Made by a program: the position numbers and the translations under genes
Assembly (NCBI GenBank): GCA_026392155.1
Contig: JAPLCP010000056.1
Coordinates: 1 to 50,462, forward strand
DNA length: 50,462 nucleotides
Direction: 5' to 3'
DNA from: Armatimonadota bacterium
GTDB lineage: Bacteria; Armatimonadota; Armatimonadia; Armatimonadales; Armatimonadaceae
Shown here: piece after piece, positions 1 to 47,953 of the stretch
How the letters are laid out: every line of letters starts with the position of its first letter
How positions within the stretch are numbered: the stretch's first letter is position 1
The notes under the pieces: model-generated
Database searches by the model: none
Told to the model about the DNA's origin: nothing
Seen by the model: the letters and a program-made list of their open reading frames with translations, nothing else

Positions 1-511
1 CGATCTGGCTGCAGATCAGGCGGCTATCGCCGCTGCTGCGGACTCGATTGACCGAATCGCTGCCAGCACTCGCTTCAACGGCAAGCTGCTGCTCGATGGT
101 TCCTACACCGCTCAGACCCTGCAGATCGGTGAGGAGTCCTCAGACACCATCACGGTTGACATTGCAGATCTGACTGCGGTCGGTCTTGGTGTTGACTCGG
201 GCACTCTGGACGTGACGGTTGCCGGTGGTGGTACAGATGCAATTGATGCCATTGACCTTGCCATCACGGCTGTCTCGACGGAGCGTGCTAAGCTGGGTGC
301 CACCCAGAAGTACACGCTTGAGACGACGGTTAACTCGCTGTCTGTTTCCGAGGAGAACATCCGATCTTCCGAGTCTGCGATTCGTGATGCGGATATGTCC
401 AAGGAGATGGTTGAGTTCACCCGCAACAACATCATGATGCAGGCAGGAACGTCTATGCTGGCTCAGGCCAACCAGTCGTCCCAGTCTGTACTCTCGATCC
501 TGCGTGGTTAG
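1..511 (+). CDS. Flagellin, C-terminal part (5' end outside window)
   Basis: The reading frame is open from base 2 to a TAG at 509-511 and encodes the C-terminal two-thirds of a flagellin. It ends in the conserved D1/D0 helices (SEENIRSSESAIRDADMS, then NNIMMQAGTSMLAQAN). It is a close paralogue of the complete flagellin immediately downstream. Two blocks are identical at DNA level (1-85 with 1023-1107, and 344-483 with 1366-1505), with divergence concentrated between them. The product is the extracellular filament subunit, exported by the flagellar type III system. The central region is short, so no large D2/D3 outer domain is present. A hairpin terminator follows directly. The start and promoter lie outside the window. 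Confidence 0.95.
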   Translation, partial: DLAADQAAIAAAADSIDRIAASTRFNGKLLLDGSYTAQTLQIGEESSDTITVDIADLTAVGLGVDSGTLDVTVAGGGTDAIDAIDLAITAVSTERAKLGATQKYTLETTVNSLSVSEENIRSSESAIRDADMSKEMVEFTRNNIMMQAGTSMLAQANQSSQSVLSILRG

Positions 512-578: not shown

Positions 579-607
579 CTTTAGTTATTCCTCCCATGGG
601 TCGAATT
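579..607 (+). promoter_or_regulatory. Predicted sigma-28 (FliA) promoter of second flagellin
   Basis: CTTTAGTT starts at 579 and GTCGAATT starts at 600, exactly 21 nt apart. The same two boxes at the same spacing occur upstream of flgE, flgI and flgF. Read as a sigma-28 promoter this is TTAG-N15-GTCGAATT, a relative of the TAAA-N15-GCCGATAA consensus. The start point would fall near 614, giving a leader of about 85 nt that contains the hairpins and CsrA site below. The motif is seen directly; assignment to FliA is inference. Confidence 0.65.
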
Positions 608-699: not shown

Positions 700-1533
700 A
701 TGGGTATGGTTGTAAACTTTAACGCGGCTGCTCTCAATGCACAGCGTAACTTGGGCATGACGAGCAAGGGACTGAATCAGTCCATTCAGCGTTTATCGAG
801 CGGACTTCAAGTCAATAGTGCCGCCGACTCGCCCGCTGGTCTGGTGATCTCGCAGCAGATGCGCTCCAAGGCCGATGGCATGAGCCAGGCTATCAAGAAC
901 AGCAACGACGGCGTCAATCTGATCAAAACTGCGGAAGGCGCTCTGAACGAGGTGCATAGCCTCCTTCGCCAGATGCGCACTCTCTCGGTTCACGCAGCCA
1001 ACGAAGGTATTAATAGCGCCAACGATCTGGCTGCAGATCAGGCGGCTATCGCCGCTGCTGCGGACTCGATTGACCGAATCGCTGCCAGCACTCGCTTCAA
1101 CGGCAAGGTGCTGCTTGATGGTTCCTACACCGCTCAGATCCTTCAGATCGGTGAGGAGTCCACGGACACCCTCACGGTTAACATTGCGGATCTGACTGCG
1201 GTCGGTCTTGGTGTTGACTCGGGCACTCTGGACGTGACGGTTGCAGGTGGTGGTGCAACGGCAATTGACCTCATTGATACCGCGATTCAGACTATCTCAA
1301 CCGCGCGTGCTGAGCTGGGTGCCACCCAGAGGTACACGCTTGAGGCGACCCTGAACTCGCTGTCCGTTTCCGAGGAGAACATCCGATCTTCCGAGTCTGC
1401 GATTCGTGATGCGGATATGTCCAAGGAGATGGTTGAGTTCACCCGCAACAACATCATGATGCAGGCAGGAACGTCTATGCTGGCTCAGGCCAACCAGTCG
1501 TCCCAATCCGTACTCTCCCTCTTGAAGGGCTAG
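700..1533 (+). CDS. Flagellin (complete)
   Basis: This 277-residue flagellin has both terminal coiled-coil regions: N-terminal D0/D1 (NFNAAALNAQRNLGM, RLSSGLQVNSAADSPAGL) and C-terminal D1/D0 (SSESAIRDADMSKEM, MMQAGTSMLAQANQ). The middle is only about 60 residues of variable sequence, so the filament would be a minimal smooth type. The ATG at 700 follows GGAGGA at 686-691. It is the second of two tandem flagellins and is likely controlled by sigma-28 transcription and CsrA/FliW translation control. No flagellin-specific chaperone (fliS) or cap (fliD) gene is nearby. Confidence 0.97.
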   Translation: MGMVVNFNAAALNAQRNLGMTSKGLNQSIQRLSSGLQVNSAADSPAGLVISQQMRSKADGMSQAIKNSNDGVNLIKTAEGALNEVHSLLRQMRTLSVHAANEGINSANDLAADQAAIAAAADSIDRIAASTRFNGKVLLDGSYTAQILQIGEESTDTLTVNIADLTAVGLGVDSGTLDVTVAGGGATAIDLIDTAIQTISTARAELGATQRYTLEATLNSLSVSEENIRSSESAIRDADMSKEMVEFTRNNIMMQAGTSMLAQANQSSQSVLSLLKG

Positions 1534-2002: not shown

Positions 2003-2842
2003 TTATTTCGTCAGAGTGAGGAGCAGGTCTTGGTGACGTAGGAGCTTGTGACTCATCCGCAGCATCGCACGTGCGTGGATCTGCGAGACGCGCTGCTCCG
2101 TGACCCCTAAAATCTGACCGATCTCTTTGAAGGTCATCTCCTGAAAGTAATACAGAGAGACGATCTGTTTCTCACGGTCGGGGAGCGCGGCGATGGCCCC
2201 GGTAAGACGGTCCTTGGCCTCCATCCGCTCGGTATCCCGGTAAGGATCGTCGTCTTCACTTCCCAGCGCGATCTCGGCCAGCGGCGAGCTGTCCATTCCT
2301 GCCACGAGATCATCCAAAGAGACTAGGGACGTCCGCGCCACATCAGAGAGCATTCCATCGAGCTCTTCCTCGGAGACCCCCATAAAATCGGCGACTTCGG
2401 CGTTGGTAGGAGGGCGACCTAGCTGAGCCTCCATCCGGCCAAAGACCTGGCGCAGCTGCGACTCACTGGTACGGAGCGAGCGTGGCACCCAGTCGAGGCG
2501 ACGGAGTGCATCCAGAACTGCTCCTCGGATTCGTGGGGACGCAAAGGCCTCAAATGAGGTCTGGAGTGTCGGATCGTAGCGATCGATGGCATCAATGAGC
2601 CCAAGCACGGCGTAGCTGAGCAAGTCATCTTTGTTCACACAGCCCCAGGCGGTGATCTGCAGGCGGTCCACGGTGCGTCGCGCCAGAGGAGCATAGGTGC
2701 GGATAATCTCCTCCCGAAGCTTGGGAGCGCGTGCTTTAATGTACTCAGCCCAGAGCTTTTTTTTCTTGCGCTCTTCCAGGCTTTTTGCTTCTTCTGTAAC
2801 AGAGGGCTGCTTGAGGGCAGGCCGTTTCAAGATCATGATCAT
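2003..2842 (-). CDS. fliA: RNA polymerase sigma factor FliA/SigD/WhiG (sigma-28)
   Basis: This 279-residue sigma-70 family protein lacks region 1.1, the hallmark of sigma-28. Region 2 (LARRTVDRLQITAWG, DLLSYAVLGLIDAIDRYDP, FEAFASPRIRGAVLDALRRL) is followed by region 3 (SQLRQVFGRMEAQLGRPP) and region 4 (LPDREKQIVSLYYFQEMTFKEIG, then LGVTEQRVSQIHARAM). It directs RNA polymerase to late flagellar promoters and is held by FlgM, which is encoded at 31542. Its place near the end of the fli/flh operon, before a SwrB-like gene, matches Bacillus sigD. ATG codons at 2842 and 2836 are both possible; no strong SD is visible. Confidence 0.95.
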   Translation of the reverse strand: MIMILKRPALKQPSVTEEAKSLEERKKKKLWAEYIKARAPKLREEIIRTYAPLARRTVDRLQITAWGCVNKDDLLSYAVLGLIDAIDRYDPTLQTSFEAFASPRIRGAVLDALRRLDWVPRSLRTSESQLRQVFGRMEAQLGRPPTNAEVADFMGVSEEELDGMLSDVARTSLVSLDDLVAGMDSSPLAEIALGSEDDDPYRDTERMEAKDRLTGAIAALPDREKQIVSLYYFQEMTFKEIGQILGVTEQRVSQIHARAMLRMSHKLLRHQDLLLTLTK

Positions 2843-14000: not shown

Positions 14001-15221
14001 TTAGCGGATGATCTGCATCAGCTCTTGGAGCATCTGATCCGATGTAGAGATCACACGGGAGTTGGCCTGATAGCCACGCTGGGTGACGATCATGTCGGTG
14101 AACTCGCGGGTCAGATCTACGTTGGAGCCTTCAAGAAAGCCACTGCGGAGTGCGCCATGACTGCCATTGCCGGGGGCGTTGAAAACTGCTTCGCCCGAGT
14201 TGACTGAGGCGCGGAAGAGGGTATTGCCGACATTTTCAAGGCCATCAGTATTGGCAAATGTGGCGGTGGCGAGCTGGCCCAGAGACTTGGTCAAACCATT
14301 GCTAAAGACTCCAGCAATCTCCCCGTTCTCACGGATCGTCACCGAGGTGAGGGTTCCAGGAGCGAGCCCGTCTTGGGAGGCGAGCGAGGCGCTCGCGTTT
14401 TTGGCGACCTGGGTCATCCCTCCAACATTGAGATCGAAGTTCAGGCTACTGGTGGCTCCGCCCGCCCCAGTCAGGGAGAGAGTGAGAGGGAGCTTGCTGA
14501 GCTGAGGAGCGCCCGTGGCATCAAAAGTTAGGTTGGCAGAGCCGTTGACACTGACAGCACCATCGGGGCTACTGCCACTGACTGTCCAGGTGTTGCTGGT
14601 GGCGGACTTGGTGAGGCTAAGGCTCAGTGAGTGCGCCGCACCCAGCGAGTCGTAGACCGTCGCGGTGATCGGCTGGCTCTGTCCGGCGGGGATTCGCGAG
14701 TCCAGATTGCCGCCTAACGTGACATTGGATGTGGCGCGGGCCAGGCTTGCCGCTCCGACGGGAACTTTGACGGTGGAGGCAGGAGTGACGGTGCTACTGC
14801 CCGGAGCCGTGGCCAGAACCCGGAGCTTAGTGGCGAGCTGAACCAGGGAGCCATCGCTGTCAATTCCTAGGCTACCGTTGCGGGTCATGAAGATATTGGA
14901 GCCATCGGTGACACTCAGAAATCCATTGCCCTCTATAGCGACATCCAGATTGCGCCCTGTGTCTTGAAGCGTCCCTTGGGCGTAGTTGGTGTTCAGCGAC
15001 GAAACTGTGACACCGGATCCCATGGTTGAGGGGTTCGTTCCCCCGCGTGTTGCTGTGGTGGGAGTGGCAGGATGGATCGTCTGATTGAGCAGATCAGAGA
15101 ACTCTGCGGTGGAGCTTTTGAAGCCGATCGTATTCGCGTTGGCGATATTGTTACCGACGGCATCCATTCGTGTCTGGTGGGCGAGCATTCCGCTCACACC
15201 TGCTTGTAAGGCTGTAGTCAT
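14001..15221 (-). CDS. flgE: FlgE, flagellar hook protein
   Basis: This 406-residue protein has the N-terminal rod/hook signature (LQAGVSGMLAHQTRMDAVGNN, then IANANTIGFKSS), the domain YAQGTLQDTGRNLDVAIEGNG, a Ser/Thr/Gly-rich central hook domain and the C-terminal helix EGSNVDLTREFTDMIVTQRG, then YQANSRVISTSDQML. Length matches hook rather than rod proteins. It is exported before the FlhB/FliK switch. It has its own predicted promoter in the gap after flgD and its own terminator, so it seems to be a monocistronic unit inside the large cluster. Confidence 0.96.
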   Translation of the reverse strand: MTTALQAGVSGMLAHQTRMDAVGNNIANANTIGFKSSTAEFSDLLNQTIHPATPTTATRGGTNPSTMGSGVTVSSLNTNYAQGTLQDTGRNLDVAIEGNGFLSVTDGSNIFMTRNGSLGIDSDGSLVQLATKLRVLATAPGSSTVTPASTVKVPVGAASLARATSNVTLGGNLDSRIPAGQSQPITATVYDSLGAAHSLSLSLTKSATSNTWTVSGSSPDGAVSVNGSANLTFDATGAPQLSKLPLTLSLTGAGGATSSLNFDLNVGGMTQVAKNASASLASQDGLAPGTLTSVTIRENGEIAGVFSNGLTKSLGQLATATFANTDGLENVGNTLFRASVNSGEAVFNAPGNGSHGALRSGFLEGSNVDLTREFTDMIVTQRGYQANSRVISTSDQMLQELMQIIR

Positions 15222-15260: not shown

Positions 15261-15289
15261 TATTCGACAAGGTTTTCAGAGTTTGAAAG
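15261..15289 (-). promoter_or_regulatory. Predicted sigma-28-type promoter of flgE
   Basis: On the minus strand CTTTCAAA (15289-15282) precedes GTCGAATA (15268-15261) with the same 21-nt start-to-start distance as at flagellin, flgI and flgF. The motif lies in the 76-bp gap between flgD and flgE and would give a leader of about 33 nt before the ATG at 15221. Confidence 0.65.
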
Positions 15290-21230: not shown

Positions 21231-22871
21231 TTAGGGCCGGCTGATGGGCTTCTCGCGAAGCCAGTCCTGGAGCATGGCTGCGACATCCTCGGGCTGGTTG
21301 GTAGCGATTCGGCGGATGCGGCCAAGGGGCGTTGCGAGCTCATCTTCATCAAGAGGAATCTCCCCTAGCTCACCGGGCTCTCTCTCAATCGGTTGACCCT
21401 CTCCGTTCAGGCCGGCAGGGGCTCCTGCGATTCCACGGGCATTTTTTCTGCCGCCAGGAAGCGCAGGGTTGCCTTTATCCCCCAGGGTCGCATCCAGCTT
21501 TTGTTTCTTGGGGCGGCGGGGGCGCATCATGATCAGCGTAAAGATCGCCACGAGAACTAGGGCCGCCAGGGCCGCTCCATTTCGGATGAGCGCCATCTGT
21601 GTCTCTTGCTTGGTTGCCGCAAGAGAGTCCGCCTTCGCTTTTTCTTCATCGGCGCGGTTGAAAGGAAGCACGGTTAGAGAGATCTGATCGCCGCGTCCTC
21701 CTGCCGTGGTCGGGTTCAGATCCAGACCCGCTGCGGCTGCGAGCGTATTGCGTAGCTCCGTTTGCTTGATGGGGGCAATATTGGCTGCTTCATCCAACAA
21801 GATAGCCACAGAGAGGTGCTTAATCTTGCCCTGTGCCATGGTGCGCTTTTCGTTGGTTTTATCAACCGCATAGGTATTGGTACTATTGATGCGATTGTAG
21901 TCCCCGACCTGACCTTTATTGTTATCCACCAGGTTTGTCATGGTTCCTGGAGCCGTCGGGGCATCTTTTTCCTGCTTGGTGTAGACCTCGCTGCTCTTGG
22001 TCTCGTTGGTGGGCAGGTTGCCCCCATTGGGGCCGCTGGGCTTGTAGATCTCGCGGACAAGCTGGCTCTGATCCCAGTCCAGCTCGGTTCGCACTGTGAT
22101 CTCCGCGCGATTGGGGCCAAGTGCACGGTCAGCAAGGCGCTGAAGATCGTCGGTAAGGCGACGGTCGTAGCGCTCCTGCATGTCTATCTGGTCTCTGCCA
22201 ATATTCTCGCCTTCACCCGCACTGTTAAGGCTATTGCCTCTAGAGTCTAAGACCGTGACTTTCTCCGGAGTGAGACGCTCCACAGACGAGGCGACGAGGT
22301 GTGCGATACCTGTAACCTGCTTCGCACTGAGCTGATAGCCCTCTTGCATGTGGATAGTCACAGAGGCTTTGACATCTTCTGCTGTCTCTGAGAAGACAGG
22401 CTTGTCGGGCATTGCGATCTGCACGCTGGCATCGTCAACGCCTTCCAGGCTCTTTATCGTGCGATTGAGCTCACCCTCTGTTGCCCGCCGCTTGTTAATC
22501 TTTTGAACGGCATCGGTCATGCCAAAGTTGGTCTTATCAAAAAGCTCATTGCCAAGGTCTCCGTGTTGCTTAGGGAGATCCTGGGCAGCAAGATCTAAGC
22601 GTACCTCAGTAACCTGATCCGCAGGGACATAGATCGTCTCACCCTTACGACCCGATTCCAACTTGAAGCTTATATTGCGCTCTTGTAGCTTGGTCTTGAT
22701 GGCACTGGCATCTGACATAGAGAGCTTTGAGTAGAGCAATCCATAGTTAGGGCGACTGGATGTGACCGCAAGGGCGAGTATCCCGCCAAAGACCGCGATC
22801 AGAATAGCGCCAAGCCCGGCCTTTTGCAGGTTCGAGAGTGCGCTCCAGTTATTTTTCAGAGAGTTAAGCAT
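21231..22871 (-). CDS. fliF: FliF, MS-ring protein
   Basis: This 546-residue protein has a first transmembrane helix at about residues 18-38, ring-building motifs RBM1 and RBM2, a larger RBM3 region (about 210-430), a second transmembrane helix (ALIRNGAALAALVLVAIFTLI) and a C-terminal FliG-binding tail (QPEDVAAMLQDWL). It forms the MS ring that houses the export gate. The first 215 codons and the leader are part of a tandem duplication with the gene upstream. Its 5' untranslated region contains a remnant of the fliE 3' end, as expected if it is the second copy. Confidence 0.97.
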   Translation of the reverse strand: MLNSLKNNWSALSNLQKAGLGAILIAVFGGILALAVTSSRPNYGLLYSKLSMSDASAIKTKLQERNISFKLESGRKGETIYVPADQVTEVRLDLAAQDLPKQHGDLGNELFDKTNFGMTDAVQKINKRRATEGELNRTIKSLEGVDDASVQIAMPDKPVFSETAEDVKASVTIHMQEGYQLSAKQVTGIAHLVASSVERLTPEKVTVLDSRGNSLNSAGEGENIGRDQIDMQERYDRRLTDDLQRLADRALGPNRAEITVRTELDWDQSQLVREIYKPSGPNGGNLPTNETKSSEVYTKQEKDAPTAPGTMTNLVDNNKGQVGDYNRINSTNTYAVDKTNEKRTMAQGKIKHLSVAILLDEAANIAPIKQTELRNTLAAAAGLDLNPTTAGGRGDQISLTVLPFNRADEEKAKADSLAATKQETQMALIRNGAALAALVLVAIFTLIMMRPRRPKKQKLDATLGDKGNPALPGGRKNARGIAGAPAGLNGEGQPIEREPGELGEIPLDEDELATPLGRIRRIATNQPEDVAAMLQDWLREKPISRP

Positions 22872-23640
22872 GGTAAATAAGAGAGTTCTAGAGAAAGACT
22901 AAAATGAATAAGCTAAAGAGAGATCTTTGCGTGGAGTGTTAAGAATATTGCCTCTAGAGTCGAGGATGATAACTTTTTTGGGAGTGAGACGCTCCACAGA
23001 TGAGGCGACGAGGTATCTGATGCCTATAACTTGCTTCGCATTGAGCTTATAGCCTTTTTGCATGTGTATCATGACGGAGGCTTTGGCATCTTCTGCGGGC
23101 TTCGAGTCGATAGGCTTAACGGGCATTGCGATCTGCACGCTGGCATCGTCAACGCCTTCCAGGCACTTTATCGTACGGCTGAGCTTGCCTTCCGTTGCTC
23201 GCTGCTTGTTAATCTTTTGAACGGCCTCGGTCATGCAACAGTTAGTTTTGTCGAAAATCTCGTCTCCAACATCTGCGTGTTGCTTAGGGAGATCCAGCCC
23301 TGCAAGATCTAAGCGTATCTCAGTAACCTGATTCGCCGGGATCTCGATGGTCTCACCCTTGTGATCCGAAATCAGCCGAAAGCGGATATTGCGCTCTTGT
23401 AGCTTGGCCTTGATGGCACTGGCATCTTGCATAGAGAGCTTTGAGTAGAGCACTCCGTAGGTAGGATTGCTAGACGTAACCGCAAGGGTGAGTATCCCGA
23501 CATAGAACGCGGCCAGAGTCGCGCCAAGAACGGCCTTGTGTAGGTTTGAGAGCGAGCTAAAGTTATTTTTCAGAGAGTTAAGCATCGTCGTAGGAGAGTT
23601 CTAGCGAAAGATTAAAATGAATAAACTTAAAGAGGGATCT
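22223..23640. repeat. 704-bp tandem duplication of the fliE end to fliF 5' region
   Basis: Copy B covers 22223-22926 (5' part of fliF, its leader and a relic of the fliE 3' end). Copy A covers 22937-23640 (truncated fliF, leader and the real fliE 3' end). The offset is 714 nt, with single-base indels in the leader. Shared leader sequence (GAGAGTTCTAG, then AAAATGAATAA) and GATCT at both right edges fix the boundaries. The junction is the 10-nt stretch 22927-22936. Confidence 0.9.
22899..23585 (-). CDS. Truncated FliF paralogue (TM1, RBM1 and RBM2 only)
   Basis: This 228-residue ORF aligns without gaps to FliF residues 1 to about 215, with roughly three-quarters identity by eye. It ends in an unrelated tail (TPRKDLSLAYSF) derived from duplicated fliE 3' sequence read out of frame. 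It lacks RBM3, the second membrane helix and the FliG-binding tail, so it cannot replace FliF. The frame has stayed open despite more than 50 amino-acid differences, with several acidic residues changed to lysine (four E to K) and a Cys-Cys pair replacing Phe-Gly. It may be a decaying copy, or a retained membrane protein that mixes with or limits MS-ring assembly. Confidence 0.8.
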   Translation of the reverse strand: MLNSLKNNFSSLSNLHKAVLGATLAAFYVGILTLAVTSSNPTYGVLYSKLSMQDASAIKAKLQERNIRFRLISDHKGETIEIPANQVTEIRLDLAGLDLPKQHADVGDEIFDKTNCCMTEAVQKINKQRATEGKLSRTIKCLEGVDDASVQIAMPVKPIDSKPAEDAKASVMIHMQKGYKLNAKQVIGIRYLVASSVERLTPKKVIILDSRGNILNTPRKDLSLAYSF

Positions 23641-25269: not shown

Positions 25270-25953
25270 ATGGTTCAAATTTTACTGGCGGTCGAGGATC
25301 CTCTCCTTCGCAATCTTCTGGCAGAACGGCTGACACAAGAAAACGATTTTCAGATCTCCGGTGCGGTGGGAGATCCAGAGAGCTTGCTGGAAGTGGTGAT
25401 GTTAGGTCAGCCCGAAGTGATTATTCTGGATCTACAGTGGAGCAATGCCAGTGGCCTAGCGCTTCTGGAGCGTGTGCTCCTCCAGAAGCCCGACTCCATG
25501 TTCTTGACCCTGGTGAGTGAAGAGGCGGAGGATGCTCAGGTAATGGCGGCGCAGAACGGTGCCCGAGGTGTCGTTACCAAGACGGAGGGTATTACCGTTC
25601 TTCCCCAAGCGATTCGGGCACTAGGGCGTGGTGAGGTCTGGTTTACCCGGCAGGTCTCGCGGCGAATCTTTCAGGAGTACCATCGCCTTGCCCGCCAGCT
25701 TCGGGAGCAAGAGCAGCCTCTCTCAGGCCTCTCTCCCAAAGAGCGTGAGGTGCTTGCCCATGTCGCGGAGGGACTCACCAACCGCGATATCGCCGAGCAG
25801 CTCCACATGAGTGTCCACACCGTGAAGCTCCATGTTCAGCGGATTCTACAAAAGCTTGAGCTACCCAACCGAACTGAGGCTGCAGTCTTTGCGGTTCGGG
25901 AAGGGCTGGTGAGCTCCCTGCCAAAACGGGTTGCTCCCAAGGATACCGTGTAA
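25270..25953 (+). CDS. NarL/FixJ-family response regulator (orphan)
   Basis: This 227-residue protein has an N-terminal receiver domain with acidic residues E9-D10, the likely phospho-acceptor D54 (in VIILDLQW) and the conserved Lys in VVTKTEG. The C-terminal LuxR-type HTH reads LSPKEREVLAHVAEGLTNRDI, then AEQLHMSVHTVKLHVQRILQK. No histidine kinase is nearby. Its position between the divergent flgB operon and motAB suggests it controls flagellar or motility genes, perhaps through the inverted repeats in the flgB intergenic region; that role is inferred. Confidence 0.9.
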   Translation: MVQILLAVEDPLLRNLLAERLTQENDFQISGAVGDPESLLEVVMLGQPEVIILDLQWSNASGLALLERVLLQKPDSMFLTLVSEEAEDAQVMAAQNGARGVVTKTEGITVLPQAIRALGRGEVWFTRQVSRRIFQEYHRLARQLREQEQPLSGLSPKEREVLAHVAEGLTNRDIAEQLHMSVHTVKLHVQRILQKLELPNRTEAAVFAVREGLVSSLPKRVAPKDTV

Positions 25954-31541: not shown

Positions 31542-31808
31542 TTAGGGATGTGACTCCAAAAGCTTCTCTGCCAGCGCGTCTTCGTCCACCTGGAACGTCC
31601 CTTGCTCGACCTGGGCGCGTAGCTCCGCCACTTCGGCGCTGCGAACATCGGGGGCCGTTTTGAGGGCATCAAACGCTGTCTGGATGTCCTCCGCACGCTG
31701 GGAGATAACGGCGGCATCCGGTCCCTCTCCCGAGGATTCGATCGTACGGTTTTTGGCTCTCTGTAGCGCCGCGATGGCGCTGACACTCAGTCCACTATCA
31801 ACTCGCAT
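31542..31808 (-). CDS. flgM: FlgM, anti-sigma-28 factor
   Basis: This 88-residue protein has a polar disordered N-terminal half and a helical C-terminal half (VISQRAEDIQTAFDALKTAP, then RSAEVAELRAQVEQGTFQVD, ALAEKLLES) that matches the sigma-28-binding region of FlgM. It holds FliA until the hook is complete, then is exported. The stop is 2 nt before flgN. Confidence 0.9.
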   Translation of the reverse strand: MRVDSGLSVSAIAALQRAKNRTIESSGEGPDAAVISQRAEDIQTAFDALKTAPDVRSAEVAELRAQVEQGTFQVDEDALAEKLLESHP

Positions 31809-32096: not shown

Positions 32097-33464
32097 TTAC
32101 TGTACCTCAACCTCGGCAAAGAGTGCACCCGCGTTTTTAATGGCTAAGATAATGGCGATCACATCACGTGGGCTCACCCGGAGGGCATTGAGCGCCCGAA
32201 CCAGCTCGGCGAGAGTGGCCCCTGGCTTCAGCTCGACAAGCGAGGCGCGGTTCTCTCCAGCGGCGATATCGGTCTGGCCGGTGACCACGGTCTCCCCCAC
32301 ATTGGCAAGCGGGCCGGGCTGGGAGATCAGGGTCTCGGAGGTGATCTCGACGGTCAGTGCGCCATGTGCCACCGCGACCGGCGCGATTCGGACATTGCCA
32401 CCGATAATCACGGTTCCCGTGCGCTCGTTCAGCACGACTTTAGCAGGCACGGAGGGCTGAACCATCAGGGCACCTACCTCCGCGATCAGGCGCACGGGAT
32501 CGTCGTAGCCTGTGGGAAGCTTCACCCGAACCGTAGCGGAGTCGAGAGCTCTGGCCGTGCCCGCTCCCAGCTTTTCATTGATCGCCAGCGCCACTTTGGT
32601 GGTGTTCTCAAAGTCCGGCGTGGAGAGGTTGATGCGCACGGAGCCATCACTGTCCGTGAGCTTCGTGGGGATCTCACGCTCGACGATCGCAGCTTCTGGG
32701 ACGCGGCCTGCGGTGGGGTGGTTTTTCGTGGCACTGTTGCCGCCACCCCCCGCGGCGAAGCCACCGATCATCAGACCGCCCTGCGCCACGGCGTAGACAT
32801 TTTCATCCGCTCCAATCAGAGGAGTCTGGAGGAGGATGCCGCCTTGGAGAGACGTGGCATCTCCCACGGAGGAGACTGTGACATCGAGCTTACTGCCGTT
32901 CTTGGCAAAGGCAGGAATCTCGGCGGTGACCATGACGACCGCGACGTTTCTTGTGCGGAGCACCTTGGGGTCTACTGTCACGCCAAAGCGCTGGAGCATG
33001 GCGACCACGGCTTGGATCGTAAACGGAGACTGCTGCGTGTCGCCGGTTCCATTGAGGCCGCTCACAAGGCCGTAGCCGATCAACTGGTTGGAGCGGACGC
33101 TCTCCACACGGGCAATATCGCGGATTCGGATGGGGGCAATTGGGAAGCCGCCCGGCCCAAAGGCACTCGTATTTGTGCTGGGACTTTTGGCGCTGGTGGT
33201 GGCGATGGGGCGAGGCGTTGGCGCGGGTGCTTTGGGAACGAGCTTGGTCGCCATGGGGAGCCGCTTAAGCTCTGCTAGGCTGGGCTTGGTCTCTTTGGTC
33301 TGCGGAGCCTTCTTAGCCTCCTTGTTGCCTGGAACTTCGGTCACTTCCAGCTTTGCAGGTGGCTGCTTCTGGGGAGTCTGTGCTTGGCCTGCACTCACCA
33401 GAGTGAGGGCACCCAGGGAGAGCACGAGAGTCGAGCCGATGGTTATATAGTTTTGACGAAACAC
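32097..33464 (-). CDS. flgI: FlgI, P-ring protein, with Pro/Lys-rich N-terminal extension
   Basis: This 455-residue protein has a Sec signal peptide (about 1-28) and the FlgI core starting near residue 112 (IRIRDIARVESVRSNQLIGY, GLVSGLNGTGDTQQSPF, and C-terminal LVRALNALRVSPRDVIAIIL, then AIKNAGAL). Between them lies an unusual stretch of about 80 residues rich in Pro, Lys, Thr and Ala; FlgI is normally about 370 residues. It forms the periplasmic P ring in peptidoglycan. The start is a GTG at 33464 with an AGAGGAGG Shine-Dalgarno that lies in the arm of a hairpin. Confidence 0.95.
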   Translation of the reverse strand: MFRQNYITIGSTLVLSLGALTLVSAGQAQTPQKQPPAKLEVTEVPGNKEAKKAPQTKETKPSLAELKRLPMATKLVPKAPAPTPRPIATTSAKSPSTNTSAFGPGGFPIAPIRIRDIARVESVRSNQLIGYGLVSGLNGTGDTQQSPFTIQAVVAMLQRFGVTVDPKVLRTRNVAVVMVTAEIPAFAKNGSKLDVTVSSVGDATSLQGGILLQTPLIGADENVYAVAQGGLMIGGFAAGGGGNSATKNHPTAGRVPEAAIVEREIPTKLTDSDGSVRINLSTPDFENTTKVALAINEKLGAGTARALDSATVRVKLPTGYDDPVRLIAEVGALMVQPSVPAKVVLNERTGTVIIGGNVRIAPVAVAHGALTVEITSETLISQPGPLANVGETVVTGQTDIAAGENRASLVELKPGATLAELVRALNALRVSPRDVIAIILAIKNAGALFAEVEVQ

Positions 33465-33476
33465 CTTAAATACGTT

Positions 33477-33505
33477 CCTCCTCTCTATCTTTCGACAGGA
33501 GAGGA
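33477..33505 (-). promoter_or_regulatory. SD-sequestering hairpin straddling the flgI promoter
   Basis: On the minus strand CCTCCTCT (33505-33498) is a perfect complement of AGAGGAGG (33484-33477), the flgI Shine-Dalgarno, separated by 13 nt that include the predicted -10 box GTCGAAAG. Read-through mRNA from flgH would fold this hairpin and hide the SD. An mRNA started at the local promoter would lack the 5' arm and expose it. The pairing is seen; the mechanism is inferred. Confidence 0.5.
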
Positions 33506-33515
33506 GGACAATGAA
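33487..33515 (-). promoter_or_regulatory. Predicted sigma-28-type promoter of flgI
   Basis: On the minus strand CTTTCATT (33515-33508) precedes GTCGAAAG (33494-33487) with 21-nt start-to-start spacing. The 17-nt segment AAATAACCCTTTCATTG around the -35 box is identical to that upstream of flgF. The start point would be near 33481, just before the flgI GTG at 33464. Confidence 0.65.
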
Positions 33516-33535
33516 AGGGTTATTTGCGCGAGATG

Positions 33536-35937: not shown

Positions 35938-36663
35938 CTAGCGAAGAAGGGTGAAGAGATTCTCCAGGGTCTGGTCCTGGGCTTGGATGGATTTCTGATT
36001 TGCCTCGTAGGCACGCATCCCGCTGATCATGTCCACCATCTCGCGGACGGGGTCTACATTAGAGCGCTCCAGGTGACCGGAGAGCACGTTCACGGTGCCA
36101 GGGGCAAGCTCGCGGACTTCGGCGGCGGTACTCATGCCATTGCCTGTGGGCGTAAGAGGGGTATTGGGCATCACAAGGCGCAGGCGTCCCAGAACCTGTC
36201 CATTTCGGCTGGTAATCGTCCCGGACTCCGAGATCTTCCAGTCCGAACTCCCCACGGGGATCGGGGCTCCGCTCGCCCCGAGAACAGGCTCACCGGTGGG
36301 GAGAGCTACCTCACCGCTTGCATTGAGTGTCAGAGAGGCGCTACGAACCAAGCGAGCGCCGTCATTGGTTTTGACCATCAGGTAGCCGGGGCCAGAGAGA
36401 GCCACATCGTGTGGGTTGCTGGTAGGCTGTACTAACCCTGGTGTGGTATCGCGTGTGGCGATAGGCTCGGTGGCAAAAGCCGTGTTAAACGGCGAGGGGT
36501 TACTGGCCCGCTTCTCTTCGGTGAGAACATAGCTACTATGGAGCGCGACCACTTGACGCTGAAAACCGGTGGAGTTGACATTGGCGAGGTTATTGGCTGT
36601 CACATCCTGAAGGATTTGCCGCGCCCGCATTCCCGTCGCACTTTCGTAGAGTCCTCTTAACAT
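35938..36663 (-). CDS. flgF: FlgF-type proximal rod protein
   Basis: This 241-residue protein starts at the ATG at 36663 (MLRGLYESATGMRARQILQD), which aligns with FlgG/FlgF starts; an upstream extension would be unlike any family member. It continues VTANNLANVNSTGFQRQVVA and ends VREMVDMISGMRAYEANQKS, IQAQDQTLENLFTLLR. Being upstream of flgG and more divergent, it is best called FlgF. It is the first gene of the minus-strand flgF-csrA block, and the predicted -10 box ends only 7 nt before the ATG, suggesting a leaderless mRNA. Confidence 0.9.
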   Translation of the reverse strand: MLRGLYESATGMRARQILQDVTANNLANVNSTGFQRQVVALHSSYVLTEEKRASNPSPFNTAFATEPIATRDTTPGLVQPTSNPHDVALSGPGYLMVKTNDGARLVRSASLTLNASGEVALPTGEPVLGASGAPIPVGSSDWKISESGTITSRNGQVLGRLRLVMPNTPLTPTGNGMSTAAEVRELAPGTVNVLSGHLERSNVDPVREMVDMISGMRAYEANQKSIQAQDQTLENLFTLLR

Positions 36664-36670
36664 ACTCTGT

Positions 36671-36699
36671 CTTTCGACCTGGTTTGGGAGCAATGAAAG
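36671..36699 (-). promoter_or_regulatory. Predicted sigma-28-type promoter of the flgF operon
   Basis: On the minus strand CTTTCATT (36699-36692) precedes GTCGAAAG (36678-36671) with 21-nt spacing. The sequence around the -35 box is identical over 17 nt to the flgI promoter region. It lies in the 75-bp divergent gap between flgF and the plus-strand gene at 36739. Confidence 0.65.
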
Positions 36700-45375: not shown

Positions 45376-45402
45376 TAAGACGGCGCGTGTAATTGCCGAT
45401 AA
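45376..45402 (+). promoter_or_regulatory. Predicted sigma-28 promoter of the GGDEF/HD-GYP gene
   Basis: TAAG (45376-45379), then exactly 15 nt, then GCCGATAA (45395-45402), an exact match to the sigma-28 -10 consensus with a one-mismatch TAAA box at the right spacing. The coding start lies about 30 nt downstream. This would put a c-di-GMP enzyme in the FliA regulon. Confidence 0.55.
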
Positions 45403-45430
45403 TCGGAGATAGAGAACCTGCTTGTCTTCG

Positions 45431-47953
45431 ATGAACACACTACCTACGATCGCACAAAACTACCTTAAACTTATCTATACGCTTGGTGGAGTGTTGCTTG
45501 CGCTTGCCTTGTGGCAGCTGTGCCATATCACCAACCCGCAGTTCAACTGGGGGCACTTGACGATTTTTGTGGTGCTTGCGGGCATGGTGGGGCCAAAGAA
45601 GATTCGCCTGACGCGTAGCCGTACCACCGATGATGTGGGGGCAATGTCCCTGGGTTTCACGATTATCTACGCCACGATGCTCCACTTCGGGCCGCCCGCT
45701 GCGGTGCTGGCTGCCTGTGCCAATGTCTTTGTGGGCTGCTTTCGCCAACCAAGCTACCAGCGCATGTTCAACGTGGCTCTCTCGGCAGTGGAGGCAACCA
45801 CTTCGGGCCTGGCTCTCAGCCTCTTGCGTGATGTGGGGGTCTCGGGGTGGCTGCGGGGTGAGTCTCCTGAGAAAGTGACGGTGGCGCATCTGCCTGCGGT
45901 TCTGATCGGTGCGATTGTCTACTACGCCGTCAATACCGGAGGCGTTTCCACGATTATTTCTCTCACCAGTAAACAAAATATTGTCGCCCTCTGGAAAGAG
46001 AACTTCCTCTGGACACTGCCTAGCTACCTGGCAGGAGCGAGTGCCAGTGGCCTAGCGCTTCTCTTGCTAGGGCTGACGGGCAATCATGTTGCAACACTGA
46101 CCATTGTGGTCTTTGTGGCCCCTGTCGGCTACATGACCTACACCGTCTACGAAACCTACACCGCGCGGGCTCGGGAGAAGCAGGAGCATATTGAGGAGCT
46201 TCAGACCAGCCAGGCGCAGCTTGCCGAGCTGTATTTAGCGACCATTAAGAGCCTTGCGCTCGCCATTGATGCGAAAGATCAGTATACCCACCAGCACATT
46301 CTACGTGTCCAGCGCTACTCCGTGGCAGTCGGGGAGCACTTGGGGCTCTCCGAAAACGACATGGAAGGCCTGCGAACAGGCGCACTACTGCACGATATTG
46401 GTAAGCTTGGCGTGCCTGAGTATGTCTTGCTCAAGCCGGGCAAGCTAACGGCAGATGAGTTTGACAAGATCAAGAAGCACCCCGAGATCGGGGCTGCGAT
46501 CCTTGACCCGGTGGAGTTCCCCTGGCCCGTCTTGCCGGTGGTGAAGTACCACCATGAGAAGTGGGACGGTACCGGCTACCCCGAAGGGCTGGCCGGTGAG
46601 GACATTCCCTTCACGGCGCGCATTCTCGCGGTCGCTGATGTCTACGATGCGCTGACCTCGAACCGCTCTTACCGTAATGCTTGGACGCATGAGAAGGCGA
46701 TCCATGTGATCCAAAAAGACGCAGGGACGCACTTTGACCCCGTGATCGCTCAGGCGTTTCTGGAGGTCATTGATGGTGTCGTGCAGGAGATGGCCAAAGA
46801 GGGGCAGGGGCCACTAGTTCCCCGCAAAGAGACACCGATCTACGCCACCAAAGCCGATGAAGCTGCCCGAGACATTCACCGTGCCTCGTCGGAGCTCTGG
46901 GCGCTCTACGAAGTGGCACAGACCCTCTCGGCCAGCATGGGAATCACCGAGACTCTGGACATTCTGGCGCGCAAGCTGGAGGCGATTCTGCCTGGTACCT
47001 CGTGTCTCTTCTTGCTCAAGTCCGAAGGCAACCCCGACACCTTGGTCGCACGTGCGGCTGTCGGAACCAACCGCGAGCACTTTCTCGGCTGTCAGACCAG
47101 CGGCTCGCGTAGCCTCACGCTTAAGACCGTCGAGCAGCGGACGACCTACCTGGGAGGCTTTGACCACGATGACCTGCTGATCACCAGCTCGACGCAGGTG
47201 CCTTGGGCCCCGCTCAACTCCTCGCTGATCGTCCCCATTGTGCACCAAGGAGAGGCGCTCGGTAGCATCAATCTCTACCACCAGCACGCCGTGGCTTTCT
47301 CACAGCACGATCAGCACTTACTGGAGATGATCTCGGAGCGCGCTGCGATGGCGATCTACAACGGCCTGCTCTACGACCGAACTCGTAGCCATGCCTTCAC
47401 CGACCCGCTCACCGAGCTCTACAACCTGCGGTTCTTGACCCAGCATGTGGAGAAGCGCTGTGAAGAAGACGAAGAGGCTCGCCGATTCTCGGTGCTCTGT
47501 ATGGACTTGGATCACTTTAAGCCCGTCAACGACAACTTTGGCCACCTACGCGGCGACGATGTCCTGCGCGACTTAGCACAGATTCTCCGGGAGACCGTCG
47601 GCCCGCGCGATGTGGTCGCTCGTTATGGCGGCGATGAGTTTCTGGTGATTGTGGAGGATGCCGGACAAGACGAAGCCAACGAGATCTCACGGCGAATCCA
47701 TGATGCGGTTGTCTCCTACGACACCCGACTGGTGCATCCCTTGCTAGGCACTCTGCGACTAGGGGTGAGTATCGGCTCTGCGTGCTTCCCCAAAGATGGA
47801 ATGGACTGTGCGAGCCTGCTCTCGGTAGCAGATCAGCGCATGTACCAGGACAAGACCGAACGCAAGCTCCGTCAGATGGCGGGAGCCCCAACCCTCCAGC
47901 AGCCTAAAATTGCGACGGCGCGAAGCAGTGCATCACGCAAAAAAGCCGCATAG
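45431..47953 (+). CDS. Membrane c-di-GMP enzyme: MASE-like, HD-GYP, GAF and GGDEF domains
   Basis: This protein of about 840 residues has an N-terminal membrane region with about seven helices (residues 10-250), a short coiled coil, an intact HD-GYP domain (HQHILRVQRYSVAVGEHLGL, GALLHDIGKLGVPEYVLL, VKYHHEKWDGTGYPEGLAGE), a GAF-type sensor (about 490-640) and a C-terminal GGDEF domain with exact motif RYGGDEFLVIVED. It can in principle make and degrade c-di-GMP. I use the ATG at 45431; a TTG at 45422 is possible. A PilZ receptor lies at 3204. The predicted sigma-28 promoter upstream links it to motility. Confidence 0.95.
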   Translation: MNTLPTIAQNYLKLIYTLGGVLLALALWQLCHITNPQFNWGHLTIFVVLAGMVGPKKIRLTRSRTTDDVGAMSLGFTIIYATMLHFGPPAAVLAACANVFVGCFRQPSYQRMFNVALSAVEATTSGLALSLLRDVGVSGWLRGESPEKVTVAHLPAVLIGAIVYYAVNTGGVSTIISLTSKQNIVALWKENFLWTLPSYLAGASASGLALLLLGLTGNHVATLTIVVFVAPVGYMTYTVYETYTARAREKQEHIEELQTSQAQLAELYLATIKSLALAIDAKDQYTHQHILRVQRYSVAVGEHLGLSENDMEGLRTGALLHDIGKLGVPEYVLLKPGKLTADEFDKIKKHPEIGAAILDPVEFPWPVLPVVKYHHEKWDGTGYPEGLAGEDIPFTARILAVADVYDALTSNRSYRNAWTHEKAIHVIQKDAGTHFDPVIAQAFLEVIDGVVQEMAKEGQGPLVPRKETPIYATKADEAARDIHRASSELWALYEVAQTLSASMGITETLDILARKLEAILPGTSCLFLLKSEGNPDTLVARAAVGTNREHFLGCQTSGSRSLTLKTVEQRTTYLGGFDHDDLLITSSTQVPWAPLNSSLIVPIVHQGEALGSINLYHQHAVAFSQHDQHLLEMISERAAMAIYNGLLYDRTRSHAFTDPLTELYNLRFLTQHVEKRCEEDEEARRFSVLCMDLDHFKPVNDNFGHLRGDDVLRDLAQILRETVGPRDVVARYGGDEFLVIVEDAGQDEANEISRRIHDAVVSYDTRLVHPLLGTLRLGVSIGSACFPKDGMDCASLLSVADQRMYQDKTERKLRQMAGAPTLQQPKIATARSSASRKKAA

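Follow-up and report, generated by a model that had tools for sequence, protein, structure and literature searches.

From Gammaproteobacteria to Actinobacteria, the promoter code of the flagellar sigma factor sigma-28 is regarded as almost invariant, and genome surveys use the pattern TAAA-N15-GCCGATAA. In E. coli the consensus is TAAAGTTT-n11-GCCGATAA, and FliA loses its activity at aer when TAAA is replaced by TATA or CAAA (PMC2859248). Sigma-28 has been described as requiring near-consensus promoters (PMC12781870), and all members of the FliA/WhiG clade, whatever their phylum or function, are considered to recognize promoters of a single specificity (PMC8325347). Here we describe a flagellar gene cluster of an Armatimonadota bacterium in which both the -35 boxes of candidate sigma-28 promoters and the recognition helix of the sigma factor encoded beside them are changed. 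The whole stretch analyzed, referred to below as the window, is 50,462 nucleotides long and corresponds to contig C84 of the assembly.

The flagellar cluster and its two-box motif

The cluster of the window contains flagellin, fliA, flhA, flhB, flhF, flhG, fli and flg genes, motAB, csrA/fliW, flgM and flgFGAHI. The genes that matter most for what follows are:

700..1533, plus strand: flagellin gene
2003..2842, minus strand: fliA, flagellar sigma-28 factor, type A, with recognition helix VTEQRVSQIHARAM
14001..15221, minus strand: flgE, hook protein
31542..31808, minus strand: flgM, anti-sigma-28 factor (Pfam FlgM, E 2.2e-16)
32097..33464, minus strand: flgI, P-ring protein
35938..36663, minus strand: flgF, rod protein, likely true start ATG at 36663 (MLRGLYESATG)

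Directly next to the full-length fliF (21231-22871), the N-terminal part of FliF is encoded a second time as an incomplete copy of 228 aa (22899-23585), apparently a tandem duplication. The flgF start region (36663-36699) has no clear Shine-Dalgarno sequence. In the genus-mate G001, a 98%-complete genome, neither FlgI nor flagellin was found, so either the window genome acquired the cluster or G001 lost it.

Four of the genes are preceded by candidate promoters of a variant sigma-28 type:

579..606, plus strand: before flagellin; -35 box CTTTAG at 579-584, -10 box GTCGAAT at 600-606
15262..15289, minus strand: before flgE; -35 box CTTTCA at 15289-15284, -10 box GTCGAAT at 15268-15262
33490..33517, minus strand: before flgI; -35 box CTTTCA at 33517-33512, -10 box GTCGAAA at 33496-33490
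36672..36699, minus strand: before flgF; -35 box CTTTCA at 36699-36694, -10 box GTCGAAA at 36678-36672

As a previous sequence-only reading had pointed out, CTTT begins exactly 21 nt before GTCGAA at all four genes (at 579 on the plus strand and at 15289, 33517 and 36699 on the minus strand). For flgI the position given had been 33515, which marks an internal TTCA of the box; the CTTT itself begins at 33517. The 17 nt said to be common to the flgI and flgF copies are present as described (AAATAACCCTTTCATTG). The flgE site is located in the gap between flgD and flgE. The distance from the -10 box to the ATG is 100 nt for flagellin, and at flgF the -10 box starts only 15 nt from the start codon. 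If the register is that of E. coli, transcription of flgF would begin at the AUG or within a few bases of it, and the transcript is likely leaderless or nearly leaderless. Upstream of motA, flgB, fliL, csrA, flgK and other genes of the window, a scan gave no good variant site.

The two boxes precede motility genes and are spaced as in sigma-28 promoters. In the -10 box, GTCGAA[AT], four of the first six letters are those of GCCGATAA. At -35, CTTTCA, CTTTAG or CTCCAG stands instead of TAAA(G), and we have therefore classed the sites as variant and not as canonical sigma-28 promoters. CTTTC is a real departure, since the TATA and CAAA versions of the box are inactive with E. coli FliA (PMC2859248).

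Specificity of the motif

A genome scan for CTTT-N17-GTCGAA had been set as the test of the motif. By pattern search over the 4.77 Mb of the assembly (228 contigs) we found 10 exact matches, against 15 for a reversed control pattern. Outside long coding frames there were four of the 10, all of them in the 50-kb window and each before a flagellar gene; the remaining six were on other contigs, within ORFs of at least 323 codons. The intergenic matches are thus confined to flagellar genes, as the test demanded. The motif is above chance in the window (Poisson P = 7e-7 for at least four matches given the background elsewhere, for a motif chosen post hoc), and the related pattern TTTC-N16-GTCGAAW has three exact matches in the genome, 3/3 in the window.

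Two further sites, outside the data from which the motif had been drawn, belong to a second flagellin gene of the same genome and to flgI of a distant relative, G038. The features of the former are:

1..511, plus strand: 3' part of a second, tandem flagellin gene whose start is on contig C35
contig C35 (L071), minus strand, -35 box from 620: candidate variant promoter of the second flagellin, CCCTCCAG-N15-GTCGAAAA

This site has the same 21-nt step as the four of the window and fits the matrix built from them, with an equal match expected 0.007 times per upstream region. The gene crosses the join between C35 and C84, which overlap by ca. 119 bases inside it (the regions concerned being 1-511 of the window and 1-640 of L071), and therefore the chemotaxis cluster of C35 (cheY, cheX, cheA, cheW, two MCPs and cheB) adjoins the flagellar cluster. 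In G038, a syntenic relative (FlgI 63% identical), the site before flgI reads CCCTTGTG-N15-GTCGAAAG (equal match expected 0.002 times per upstream region) and that before flagellin CCCTTTAG-N14-GCCGAAG, with GCC at -10 and a spacing one base shorter. A weak look-alike, CCCTTGTG-N15-GCCGAAC, lies 43 nt before the start of the che operon of C35, with 0.085 expected by chance. It was left out of the set, and the classical targets motA and che operon are without a strong copy.

Because the motif had been defined from the sites themselves, and because one-mismatch matches show no excess over the genome (63, against 136 for the control), it could be argued that chance or reader selection had picked out frequent AT-rich words near gene starts. 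The confinement of exact matches outside genes to flagellar genes, together with the sites that turned up independently, one in G038 and one before the second flagellin, makes this extremely improbable.

Promoters in related genomes

In ca. 60 other Armatimonadota genomes the regions upstream of flagellin contain mostly clear sigma-28 promoters, CT[AC]AAG-N14/15-[GA]CCGATAA. We carried out a free EM fit on 62 upstream regions (61 flagellin genes and flgF of G114). Families with the type-A FliA described below gave CT[AC]AAG-N15-G[T/C]CGATA, with T at position 2 of the -10 box (0.75); in families without it this position was C (0.96). Species are non-independent in these counts, one family supplying nine of the type-A flagellin promoters. 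Two type-A families (f31 and f20) and a basal family (f3) have GCC at -10, so that the -10 change tracks type A imperfectly.

The flgF promoters of three relatives are found at the same place and with the same 21-nt step as that of the window, their boxes being CTAAAC..GTCGATA in G050 and G037 and CTAAAG..GTCGAAA in G114. This shared position indicates that the flgF site of the window is probably a sigma-28-type promoter with a changed -35. In the register given by the relatives CTTTCA-N15-GTCGAA corresponds to CTAAAG-N15-GTCGATA, which the alternative description of the boxes as T(T/A)(C/A)(A/G)-N15 only blurs. A step of 21 nt is also two turns of B-DNA, and there is a LuxR-type regulator gene within the cluster at 25270, as might be expected if the boxes were half-sites of an activator or repressor and not contacts of a sigma factor. 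However, the two boxes are unlike one another and non-palindromic, the short distance at flgF leaves no space for a further promoter, and relatives have ordinary sigma-28 promoters of identical step at the orthologous positions, all of which renders a regulator of this kind very improbable.

The suggestion of a lineage-specific consensus holds for one box and fails for the other. CTT[TG] at -35 was found only in the window genome and in G038, the relatives having CT[AC]AAG, but GTCGA[AT] at -10 is common to several Armatimonadota families, the C-to-T change being present in relatives of f18, f7 and f36. Our sample of the CTT[TG] lineage consists of seven clear sites from two flagellated genomes, with CTTTCA, CTTTAG, CTCCAG and CTTGTG at -35; CTT is kept in six of the seven and the exact 21-nt step likewise in 6/7. 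A third genome, G024, was examined for the -35 change; it yielded no flagellin or FlgI, no flagellar genes beside fliA and a single match to the pattern.

The sigma factors

A tree of the sigma-28 proteins of the phylum separates two paralogue groups, types A and B, and in those relatives that were inspected type-A fliA accompanies the genes for flagellar export. One clade (support 0.99) unites the FliA of the window with those of G038 and G024. The window protein has sigma-70 regions 2, 3 and 4, belongs to the flagellar clade and has a FlgM partner, yet it lacks the usual region 4.2 helix (ESR..Q.H, which is common but not strictly defining). Its recognition helix EQR.SQ.HARA is present only in the window genome (G000), G038 and G024, i.e., HARA takes the place of H[ST][KQ]A and Gln that of Ser (rarely Gly or Ala), the other proteins of the tree having E[SGA]R. 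Sequences from other phyla have Ser (ESR) in 29/29 readable cases. By alignment, we take the Gln to occupy the position of sigma-70 E585, a residue that contacts the -35 box. The fliA gene of G024 (L254:1528-2400; 80%-complete genome), of the EQR/HARA type, codes for the protein closest to the window FliA (59%), and is an orphan sigma factor there.

The window genome has a second protein of this family:

contig C102 (L217), 1468-2241: intact type-B FliA/WhiG-like paralogue, 257 aa, with ordinary recognition residues VSESRVYQLHTQ

Being intact, and of a type that is the sole one found in several flagellated relatives, this paralogue might read the variant promoters in place of the cluster FliA. 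We consider this improbable. Its region 4.2 is ordinary, its type pairs with CTAAAG-N14/15-[GA]CCGATAA in other genomes, and it is unlinked to flagellar genes, its neighbors being a TPR-protein gene and then an NAD-kinase-like gene. In addition, a FliA-family gene is present in the non-flagellated G001 too, with an identity of only ca. 41% to the window FliA.

One more site of the window had been grouped with the four as fitting a variant sigma-28 promoter:

45376..45402, plus strand: TAAG-N15-GCCGATAA, canonical sigma-28-like, outside the set, before an HD-GYP/GGDEF gene (45422-47953)

On the matrix it reaches 4.7 bits, against 20 to 23 for the set, with 0.46 expected by chance, and it was rejected as a variant promoter since it carries a different, canonical motif. 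This type has three matches in the genome, that at 45376 being the sole intergenic one, and as such it corresponds to a canonical sigma-28 site (TAAA-N15-GCCGATAA, intergenic). As a speculation, it could be a target of the type-B paralogue. In Rubrobacter, WhiG, which is related to type B, controls genes of c-di-GMP enzymes (PMC8325347).

A probable variant sigma-28 regulon

The sigma-28-type promoters of the flgF and flagellin orthologues in relatives, the presence of FliA and FlgM in the cluster and the changes in the -35 helix of FliA all speak for the variant FliA promoter that the sequence-only reading had envisaged. We estimate a probability of roughly 0.85 that the cluster FliA, restrained by FlgM, reads the boxes as the -35 and -10 of sigma-28-type promoters. 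Points against it are the small sample of the CTT[TG] box, the divergent flagellin site of G038 and the failure to find a strong copy at motA or the che operon. FliA (2003-2842) would bind the CTT[TG]-type promoters under the control of FlgM (31542-31808) and most likely drive both flagellins, the hook gene flgE, the P-ring gene flgI and the rod gene flgF. In the ancestor shared by the FliA of the window and that of G038, the -35 box may have shifted from CTAAAG to CTT[TG], the matching protein side being presumably HARA in region 4.2 and the replacement of Ser by Gln at the position of sigma-70 E585. That helix and box are both changed in the same lineage is a correlation on one branch, not a proof of cause. 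That FliA and its whole promoter set co-evolved to a new -35 code via Gln and HARA, with two sigma-28 codes in one cell, we propose tentatively, at somewhat less than even odds.

Sigma-28 also makes an extended -10 contact. Hence the same promoters could have kept GTCGAA as a sufficient extended -10 while the -35 merely decayed, the helix changes being unrelated, and the variable -35 letters would agree with this. We find it rather unlikely: of the seven clear sites, which come from two distantly related genomes, six retain CTT and six the 21-nt step, no clade but that of the window, G038 and G024 has the helix changes, and sigma-28 is described as needing near-consensus promoters (PMC12781870). 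For the latter reason, and given that changes in TAAA abolish activity, E. coli FliA should be a poor reader of the CTTTC-type promoters of the window.

If sites and reading helix have indeed both changed, the lineage would show, as an experiment of nature, how the specificity of a regulator shifts together with that of its regulon, and would possibly be a natural case of a supposedly universal regulator altering its own code, in which the single residues and single bases for swapping are named. Motility regulons of poorly studied phyla might also be missed by the standard TAAA-N15-GCCGATAA pattern.

Comparison with known systems

Like the canonical sigma-28 systems (FliA/SigD/WhiG, TAAA-N15-GCCGATAA), the window has two boxes at near-equal spacing, a CGA core at -10, flagellin, hook and rod genes as targets, and FliA and FlgM, here in the cluster itself. 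It differs at -35 (CTTTC vs. CTAAAG), at -10 (GTCGAA vs. GCCGAT), in a spacing one base longer than that of E. coli, and in region 4.2 of FliA, with Gln for Ser and HARA for HSQA. The WhiG promoters of Rubrobacter and Streptomyces, read by sigma factors of the same clade as the window FliA, keep TAAA and GCCGATAA, from which the window departs (PMC8325347). Within the phylum, the flagellar promoters of two families with type-A FliA (f18 and f7) share with the window GTCGA[AT]A at -10, the 21-nt step and the flgF and flagellin targets, but their -35 box is CT[AC]AA[GC] and the recognition helix of their FliA has Ser.
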